From Armatimonadota bacterium (GTDB lineage: Bacteria; Sysuimicrobiota; Sysuimicrobiia; Sysuimicrobiales; Humicultoraceae), in the NCBI GenBank assembly GCA_031459855.1, contig JAVKHP010000001.1:1036059-1100058 (forward strand): 64,000 bases of DNA, read 5' to 3'. This document shows, in pieces, positions 1 through 2,267 of the stretch; within the stretch, counting starts at the first letter, position 1; the number at the start of each line of letters is the position of its first letter. The notes below the pieces were generated by a model. The model was given only the letters and a program-made list of their open reading frames with translations. It had not been told where the DNA came from and ran no database searches. Position numbers and translations under genes: made by a program.

Positions 1-2
1 GT

Positions 3-248
3 GACAGACTTACGTTGTCCTCTCATACGCCCGAGTATGGAAGGGCCGAGGAGATATTGGAAGTGCGAACCGAAGGGGAAACGGTGCCGACAGCGTTCAA
101 TGCGCGGTATTTAATGGAGTGCTTGGCCGTGGTGGAAGCGGCGGAAGTAGCGTTAGAACTCACGGGGTCGTTGAGTCCGGGAGCAGTGCGCCCGGTAGGA
201 CAGCCGGAGTACGTGTACGTGTTGGCACCGGTGCGTGTCGCGAGTTGA
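3..248 (+). CDS. dnaN: DNA polymerase III beta sliding clamp, C-terminal fragment
   Basis: This is the last 81 residues of the beta clamp, the ring that tethers the replicative polymerase to DNA. The reading frame is open from base 3 and ends at TGA 246-248; the 5' part lies outside the window. The tail is diagnostic: a TLSSHTPE segment, then FNARYL, then an acidic strand, LTGSLSPGAVRP and a hydrophobic end (YVYVLAPVR), which is the third clamp domain and its final beta strand. The position directly before an S4-domain gene remnant and recF matches the conserved origin-proximal order. Base composition is less GC-rich and more G-over-C skewed than the rest of the window. Confidence 0.93.
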   Translation, partial: DRLTLSSHTPEYGRAEEILEVRTEGETVPTAFNARYLMECLAVVEAAEVALELTGSLSPGAVRPVGQPEYVYVLAPVRVAS

Positions 249-255
249 ACGGTTG

Positions 256-453
256 GTGCAAGTTGCCGCAGACAGCATTGTACAGGGTGCGTTGTCAAAG
301 TTGATGAGTGTCACGGCGACAGGAGGAAGCGAAGGCGCTGACATGTAGTGGTGCGGTGCGAGTCAAAAGGACGGTTTATGTCGTCGTGAATGGCGAATGT
401 TTCTCGGCGGTGACGTGGTGGAACTCGTCGGGTACAAACGTGTGATGCGGTGA
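256..453 (+). pseudogene. yaaA: S4-domain RNA-binding protein (YaaA-like), frame-disrupted
   Basis: No single frame is open here, but three joined frame segments rebuild a complete small S4-domain protein of about 65 residues. Segment one (from GTG 256, frame of base 256) reads ADSIVQGALSKLMSVTATGG, matching the S4 helix and GG turn. Segment two (frame of base 326) reads EAKALTCSGAVRV, the AK-x(n)-G-V-V strand. Segment three (frame of base 367) reads KDGLCRREWRMFLGGDVVEL, matching the RRGRKL-x-x-GDVVEI end. Its TGA (451-453) overlaps the recF ATG (453). The changes needed are one base too many near 322-328 and one too few in the A-run at 365-368. In Bacillus the same slot holds yaaA. It may be a decayed gene, a sequencing or assembly error, or a real frameshifted product. 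Confidence 0.62.
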
Positions 454-1595
454 TGGCCGTGACATGCAACGTACGTCGGCTAGCGTTGCGGGATTTCCGC
501 AACCATGCGCGAACGGACCTTGAGCTGCAGGACGGACTCACGATCTTCGTGGGTGGCAACGGACAGGGAAAGTCGAACCTTCTTGAGGCGTTGTACGTTG
601 TCGCGACAGGGCGTTCCTATCGCACCACGCGGGATGCGGAGATGATCGCCCATGGCGCACATCTGGCACGAGTGCATGCGGTGGTGATCCGTCGCGGCGG
701 TCGGGAAGAAGAGCAGGAAGCACTCATCAGTCGTCATGGTGAAACGGGATCCGTGCGCTTGCGCGTGAGTGGTGTTGAAACGCCCCGCAGCCGGGTCTTG
801 GGACGGGTGCCGGTCGTCGTGGCGGCGCCGTGGGATCTCGACGTCGTACGGGGCGCGGCGGTATTGCGTAGGCGTCTGTTGGACGCGGCGCTGGCGCAAA
901 CGAGTCCGGCGTACTTTTTCGCACTGCATCGGTATTATCGGGTACTTGCGCAGCGGAACGCCGTGTTACGGCAGCGGAGTGGTGCGCACTTCGAACCGTG
1001 GGAAGCACAGATGGTCACCCTCGGTGCGCGTATCACGGCGCGACGCCGCACTTATGTGGAACGACTCAACGCACGGGCGGCCGAGTGGTTCCGGCATCTC
1101 GGTGGCGTAGGACGTCTCGAAGTGCGGTATCGGCCGTCATGGACGGGTGCGTCGGAAGAGGAAGTTGCGGTTGTGGCCAGGGAAGAACTCCGCCGGCGTC
1201 GTGCCGATGAAATACGACGGGGAAGCACGTTGTCGGGGCCCCAGCGCGACGAAGTGGAGTTCGTGCTGGACGGCGTGCCGTTGCGCAGCACAGGGTCGCT
1301 GGGGCAATGGCGCCTGGCGATGCTAGCCGTACGGTGCGCCGAACGTGAGGTCGTGGAAGCGGAGCTGGGGACGCGGCCGCTGTTGCTGCTCGATGACGTG
1401 CTGGCGGAGCTGGATGACGCGCGTCAACAGCGGGTCTTGCAGTTGACCGGGACGGGTCAGGTGCTGGTGACCATGACGGTGCTTCCGTCGGAACCACGGG
1501 GGGTCGAGTTGGTCAGGGCAGGAATGCGCGTGTTGAACGTCTCGGGCGGAACTGTCGGGGAGGGGGTATGGTCGCACCGATCCGCGACGTCCTAG
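453..1595 (+). CDS. recF: DNA replication and repair protein RecF
   Basis: RecF is an SMC-like ATPase that loads RecA at single-strand gaps with RecO and RecR. The 380-residue protein has the family layout: an N-terminal RLALRDFRNH strand, Walker A GGNGQGKSN at about residues 34-42, the ABC signature LSGPQRDEVEF near 260, and Walker B LLLLDDVLAELDD near 309-321. ATG 453 overlaps the stop of the S4 remnant (TGATG); GTG 450 directly before it is also possible. The last 28 bases overlap dciA, so the two are probably translationally coupled. It is part of the origin-proximal cluster and lies on the leading strand, with strong G-over-C skew. Confidence 0.96.
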   Translation: MAVTCNVRRLALRDFRNHARTDLELQDGLTIFVGGNGQGKSNLLEALYVVATGRSYRTTRDAEMIAHGAHLARVHAVVIRRGGREEEQEALISRHGETGSVRLRVSGVETPRSRVLGRVPVVVAAPWDLDVVRGAAVLRRRLLDAALAQTSPAYFFALHRYYRVLAQRNAVLRQRSGAHFEPWEAQMVTLGARITARRRTYVERLNARAAEWFRHLGGVGRLEVRYRPSWTGASEEEVAVVAREELRRRRADEIRRGSTLSGPQRDEVEFVLDGVPLRSTGSLGQWRLAMLAVRCAEREVVEAELGTRPLLLLDDVLAELDDARQQRVLQLTGTGQVLVTMTVLPSEPRGVELVRAGMRVLNVSGGTVGEGVWSHRSATS

Positions 1596-1945
1596 GGGCG
1601 ACAGCGAAGCGGTGGGGGCTGGCCAGGCTTGCGTGGCTTGTCGACCTGCAACGCCGGTGGCCTACGATCGTGGGGCCAACGTTGGCCAGGCTGTCGTGGC
1701 CCGAGCGTGTGCGGGGCGATGCGTTGGTCGTGGCGGCGAGGCAGCCGGCGGTCGCGCAGGAACTCCGATGGCGAGAGCGTGCGATTTTGCAGGCGGCGGG
1801 AACCGGGCAAGAAGGGTGGCCTGCCCGTCTCCGGGTGGTCGTGCGGACGCGGTTGCCAGGTGGGGTCCGGCGGGCTGCGTCCAGCGGAGTGCGCGGCGGA
1901 CACGGTCGCTCGGTGGGTGGTACCACCCACCGTCGTCAGGGGTGA
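1568..1945 (+). CDS. dciA: DciA-type (DUF721) replicative helicase loader
   Basis: The 125-residue product matches the DUF721/DciA family, which helps load the DnaB helicase at origins in bacteria lacking DnaC/DnaI. The recognisable core is the W-x-x-IVGP-x-LA segment (about residues 31-41), followed by a surface-proline and RGDALVV strand and an AVAQELRW helix. The C-terminal 30 residues are Gly/Arg/Ser-rich and probably disordered. ATG 1568 has a strong upstream SD (GGGGAGGGGG) and lies inside recF, implying coupling. B. subtilis has no dciA at this locus, so its presence among Bacillota-like synteny is informative for placement. Confidence 0.85.
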   Translation: MVAPIRDVLGATAKRWGLARLAWLVDLQRRWPTIVGPTLARLSWPERVRGDALVVAARQPAVAQELRWRERAILQAAGTGQEGWPARLRVVVRTRLPGGVRRAASSGVRGGHGRSVGGTTHRRQG

Positions 1946-1949
1946 GAGG

Positions 1950-2267
1950 GTGCTGGTCTACCTGGGGGCCGATCTGGTCGTGGACGCCAGGGAAGTCGTG
2001 GCGATTCTGGCTGTGCGTGCACAGAGAGGGGGTGCGGGTCCATCAGAACGCGGTCGGCGGTCGAGGCCCGGGGAACCGATGGGACCGGCGGTGGCGCGGG
2101 CACGGGTGGTAACCACGCGGGGGATCTTGCTGACCGAGTTGGCGCCAGCGACGGTGGCGCGGCGGGTGGCACGAAACGGCGGACGGACCCTAGCGTGGCG
2201 GCGGCCTGGAGTGCAGAAAAATAGCGCACGGAGGGGCCTGGAGGGACCGTATCAGGTGGGGGTCTGA
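1950..2267 (+). CDS. remB: RemB-like (DUF370) regulator
   Basis: The GTG start at 1950 follows a GGTGAG/GAGG SD and lies 4 bases after dciA. The first 25 residues (VLVYLGADLVVDAREVVAIL) match the start of RemB/YaaB, a small DUF370 protein encoded between recF and gyrB in Bacillus and related to the biofilm regulator RemA. A second conserved block follows at about residues 50-75 (VVTTRGILLTEL, then APATVARR). The loop between the blocks is Arg/Gly/Pro-rich, and a basic tail extends the protein to 105 residues against the usual 75-90. The match rests on the two conserved blocks and synteny. A biofilm role here is not shown. Confidence 0.78.
   Translation: MLVYLGADLVVDAREVVAILAVRAQRGGAGPSERGRRSRPGEPMGPAVARARVVTTRGILLTELAPATVARRVARNGGRTLAWRRPGVQKNSARRGLEGPYQVGV

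Follow-up and report, generated by a model that had tools for sequence, protein, structure and literature searches.

YaaA of Bacillus subtilis (TIGR02988) is encoded between dnaN and recF by about 70–75 codons, with its stop at the recF start. A role in 50S assembly has been proposed for it, because raising its expression suppresses a mutation in rplB (Suzuki et al. 2014, as cited in PMC7196914). In Grad-seq, by contrast, the pneumococcal homologue, SP_2226, migrates with the 30S subunit (PMC7196914). YaaA cannot take the place of RqcP in ribosome quality control (PMC11317155), and a survey of Mollicutes describes it as a ribosome-binding protein that is retained in some groups only (PMC4014445). 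Such patchy retention, which the family studied here also shows, would agree with a non-essential, ribosome-associated role. Literature searches on yaaA together with recF and dnaN, and on RlbA, found nothing. The other S4_2 branch is represented by YbcJ of E. coli (PDB 1p9k), which, unlike YaaA, is not encoded beside recF.

Here we analysed a 64,000-nucleotide stretch of an Armatimonadota genome (the window) that includes the dnaN–recF interval. Comparison with related sequences indicates that positions 238–453 very probably hold a true, decaying pseudogene of yaaA, the gene for a small single-domain S4 RNA-binding protein. Like its B. subtilis counterpart, the remnant has the dnaN–recF position, a length of about 70–75 codons and a stop at the recF start, and the motifs GG-x-AK, V-x-V and GD-V-V are common to both. 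Unlike YaaA, it is unreadable in one frame, is changed at residues conserved throughout the order and scores below the curated score of the family. Its indels and substitutions, intact neighbours and empty sites in relatives are those of ordinary bacterial pseudogenes in conserved operons, from which it does not differ in kind; its lesions happen to cancel in frame. The finding is that of a known gene in a known place and of ordinary gene loss.

Layout of the dnaN–recF interval

The start of dnaN lies to the left of the window, which opens in the final third of the gene; once flanking DNA is included, the whole frame measures 383 aa. Downstream of recF, the order is dciA, a weak RemB-like frame, gyrB and gyrA (Table 1). 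The interval between dnaN and recF is 204 nt long, and no frame taken singly codes for a recognisable protein. On the two strands, six other ORFs overlap it, and none matched Pfam at E values up to 10. An Rfam search of the interval matched no family, and its RNA folded no better than shuffled versions (z -0.79).

Table 1. Features in and near the dnaN–recF interval, with three further frames of the window
Feature	Positions	Strand	Remarks
dnaN (DNA polymerase III beta clamp), 3' end	1–248	+	TGA stop 246–248; PF02768, E 7.3e-16
yaaA remnant, piece 1, frame 1	238–327	+	N-terminus, first helix, GG turn; alignment core 271–327, DSIVQGALSKLMSVTATGG; 8.2 bits alone with the order HMM
yaaA remnant, piece 2, frame 2	326–379	+	EAKALTCSGAVRVKRTVY; contains EAK...GAVRV; shifted relative to pieces 1 and 3
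yaaA remnant, piece 3, frame 1	382–453	+	RREWRMFLGGDVVELVGYKRVMR (382–450), then TGA stop 451–453
recF, intact	453–1595	+	ATG 453 or GTG 450; SMC_N/RecF family, E 4.9e-16; 62% identity to G006 recF over the full length
dciA	1568–1945		PF05258; downstream of recF
RemB/RemA-like (DUF370 type) frame	1944–2267		between dciA and gyrB; weak N-terminal match, long divergent middle; NF046065 17.7 bits and PF04025 14.4 bits, each below cut-off
Well-coded frame, 484 aa	13133–14587		no Pfam match at E 1e-5
Well-coded frame, 234 aa	24133–24837		no Pfam match at E 1e-5

Homology of the interval to YaaA

An earlier note, made from the sequence alone, had proposed that three short frame segments, taken in order, rebuild an S4-domain protein between dnaN and recF. 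We compared the region with a profile of 34 distinct S4 proteins encoded ahead of recF in genomes of the family and the order, using a local alignment that tolerates frameshifts. The best path runs through 271–327 (frame 1), 326–379 (frame 2) and 382–432 (frame 1) and scores 39.8 bits, compared to 20.5 bits for the best alignment without frameshifts. This score was reached neither by any of 3000 Markov shuffles of the region (maximum 31.9, mean 14.5 bits) nor by any of 1262 other pieces of the window (maximum 26.2 bits), and corresponds to a Gumbel p of approximately 1e-6 to 2e-5. The frame path stayed the same when the cost of a frameshift was set anywhere from 4 to 12 bits. In the same alignment, intact relatives scored 149–159 bits, one genome in which yaaA lies further from recF (G015) scored 54 bits, and the empty sites of two family members, G004 and G001, scored 16–17 bits.

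When the observed frames were joined on the best path, the sole Pfam match was S4_2 (PF13275; E 2.3e-4, 21.4 bits, cut-off 24.6) and the sole NCBIfam match was TIGR02988, YaaA_near_RecF (E 0.0053, 16.9 bits, far below the cut-off of 84.75). With an order-level HMM, the joined frames scored 39 bits, against 12 bits for the best of 5000 composition shuffles. The separate pieces, and joins with X placed at other junction points, gave no Pfam or NCBIfam match, a result that, taken by itself, could have passed for a refutation. The profile search that the earlier note had suggested as a check on its corrected product thus fails for the X-joined version and succeeds for the best-fitting join, and its three-segment S4 protein holds. 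Scores that are significant and yet below the curated cut-offs are what a decayed copy would be expected to give.

Those sub-threshold scores would also suit an interval without a gene, in which the S4 resemblance arose by chance or in which another protein or an RNA is encoded. We consider this very unlikely, since the frameshift-tolerant score beats all shuffles and all window pieces, the site is the exact yaaA position of relatives, flanked by the dnaN C-terminus and recF, and neither the six overlapping ORFs nor the Rfam search produced another candidate.

Lesions and substitutions in the remnant

The homologous frame of the remnant starts at about 238, before position 249, and crosses the dnaN stop. 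At its other end, as the earlier note had described, the TGA of the remnant overlaps the recF start. The first junction between frames falls within about 319–331 and the second within about 365–381, leaving a middle stretch of some 40–55 nt out of frame. The distance from the GG to the GD codons is 81 nt, which corresponds to the 27 codons found in intact genes of the family (G006 included), and the distance from the dnaN stop to the GG codons is 76 nt, again as in the intact G006 gene. Since both spacings equal those of G006, the net length change is zero, and the overall length is conserved to the base. The bookkeeping of the indels is ambiguous. A surplus base at 322–328 and a missing one at 365–368, as put forward in the earlier note, make up one of several equivalent accounts; the net change of zero that they imply stands. 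Both +1/-1 and -2/+2 are possible, and the profile fits -2/+2 better, with two bases fewer near 326–328 and two more near 380–381. Among these accounts, the net change of zero is the sole clear point. A functional YaaA would be read as S4 in a single frame, whereas here the S4 pattern is spread over three pieces in two frames. Ordinary translation of the remnant cannot yield the S4 protein.

Ribosomes might instead switch frame twice and so produce a working YaaA, a programmed recoding that the earlier note had entertained and that would suit the zero net change, the kept spacing and the stop that still overlaps the recF start. However, at the first junction the tRNA-Gly on GGA (322–327) must re-pair with GAG, and at the second the tRNA-Lys on AAA (365–367) must step back and then re-pair with CAA. 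Neither junction is slippery, and neither re-pairing is a known slippery arrangement. The RNA of the interval does not fold better than its shuffles, all relatives found have yaaA in an unshifted frame, and the shifted product would still have lost conserved S4 residues. We therefore regard programmed shifts as scarcely credible. There is likewise only a slim chance that the doubly frameshifted yaaA is still expressed via recoding, or that the remnant is kept as a translational spacer coupling dnaN to recF.

We then considered residue conservation. Among 36 intact relatives, 18 columns are conserved throughout the order (at least 90% agreement). Each intact relative keeps 16–18 of these and the remnant 11, so that seven of the 18 residues expected of a functional YaaA are changed. 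Three of the changes (L to Q, L to S and A to M) precede both junctions, and R to E comes after them. At sites invariant in six family members, the remnant keeps 19 of 43 (18 of 40 when the better join is used), whereas dnaN of the same genome keeps 114 of 132 and recF 169 of 211 (Fisher p for the remnant of 1e-7 against dnaN and 5e-6 against recF). More distant intact yaaA genes retain 33/44 (G005) and 29/44 (G007) of the invariant sites. The remnant protein is 32–37% identical to yaaA products of the family, which, where intact, share 69% or more identity with the G006 copy; for the same genome pairs, dnaN is 67–71% identical and recF 55–60%. A broken frame thus coincides with relaxed constraint relative to both intact orthologues and neighbouring genes, as in a pseudogene.

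These substitutions also bear on a technical explanation raised in the earlier note, in which assembly or sequencing indel errors broke a working yaaA and both shifts are artefacts. That the two shifts cancel and lie within about 60 nt of each other would suit such errors, as would the A run (365–368) touched by one junction and an assembly in four contigs. However, the A run comprises only four bases, and at the other junction no homopolymer is longer than two bases. Two indel errors cannot account for substitutions at conserved sites, some of them upstream of the junctions, nor for an identity to family yaaA far below that of intact copies in a genome whose own dnaN and recF stay high. Moreover, of 33 other genes of the window checked with Pfam, 31 were matched and none was split between two neighbouring frames, which indicates that the assembly is not generally indel-rich. 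We consider it unlikely that the shifts are artefacts.

Retention and loss of yaaA among relatives

The earlier note had predicted a yaaA gene here from dnaN–yaaA–recF synteny and had suggested comparing the dnaN–recF gaps of close relatives. Relatives do carry an intact S4_2 gene at the same spot. Within the family, yaaA is intact directly behind dnaN in eight of ten genomes (G002, G003 and G005–G010), and the same holds, with a strong S4_2 match, for 28 of another 32 genomes from the order; the four without comprise three assemblies that are 64–86% complete and one that is 72% complete. The intact G006 protein matches the YbcJ structure 1p9k (E 3.4e-4) and scores 72.7 bits with YaaA versus 31.6 bits with YbcJ. 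G004 lacks yaaA, and its dnaN runs a few bases into recF. G001 lacks recF as well as yaaA and has dciA next after dnaN. G005 and G007 show the reverse of the window's genome, with yaaA retained and recF missing from the locus. In G001, G005 and G007, recF is thus missing from the dnaN–dciA interval, and elsewhere in these genomes only SMC-like matches to RecF were found. A six-frame search of the window's genome for PF13275 found no match elsewhere and none at the locus itself, where the earlier note had described yaaA as absent from any single-frame annotation.

In a dnaN tree, the window's genome groups, with 100/100 support, among carriers of intact yaaA; a separate group holds G004 and G001 as well as G005 and G007, whose yaaA is intact. 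As yaaA is present in the rest of the order, three events are needed if the gene was only ever lost, and two changes suffice on the tree once regain is permitted. The genus is represented by one genome, and the lesions are known from that genome alone.

With intact copies in relatives, no one-frame copy here and conserved residues lost, our data support the suggestion of the earlier note that this lineage is losing yaaA. We hypothesize that, in the likely history of the locus, selection first relaxed on a ribosome-associated protein that the lineage can do without. Indels and substitutions would then have followed, the compensating indels, with their net change of zero, moving the middle segment into another frame, with stop codons in the path; the remnant DNA would so far have stayed where it was. 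A sister lineage has had yaaA excised completely, and its loss would seem to be tolerated. Speaking against decay, the length and both end spacings are exact to the base and much of the S4 pattern can still be read; the loss of yaaA therefore need not be old.

If this reading is correct, the annotation of a conserved operon is corrected, the apparent gap being a pseudogene. YaaA, a ribosome-associated S4 protein whose role is unsettled, would be dispensable in this family, having vanished or decayed in three lineages, as recF has been lost in others. The locus would be an example of the loss of a part from a conserved replication operon, which is not a surprise.

The region around the locus differs in composition from the rest of the genome. 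A zone of lower GC (0.57–0.70) lies at and to the left of the replication origin, covering positions 1–2000 of the window and approximately 40 kb leftward, and is lowest at dnaA–dnaN–recF; GC is 0.70–0.75 in the remainder of the window and in four further stretches sampled from the genome. The GC3 of dnaN and recF is 0.59–0.70, versus 0.92 for genes called in the window. Base composition was considered as a sign of decay and set aside: GC and GC3 of the remnant are low, but so are those of dnaN and recF in this genome, and the measure is therefore uninformative. The sign of the GC skew switches at dnaN. Finally, the dnaN branch of the window's genome is long (0.47, compared to 0.01–0.22 in family members), so the entire origin-proximal locus may evolve fast in this genome.
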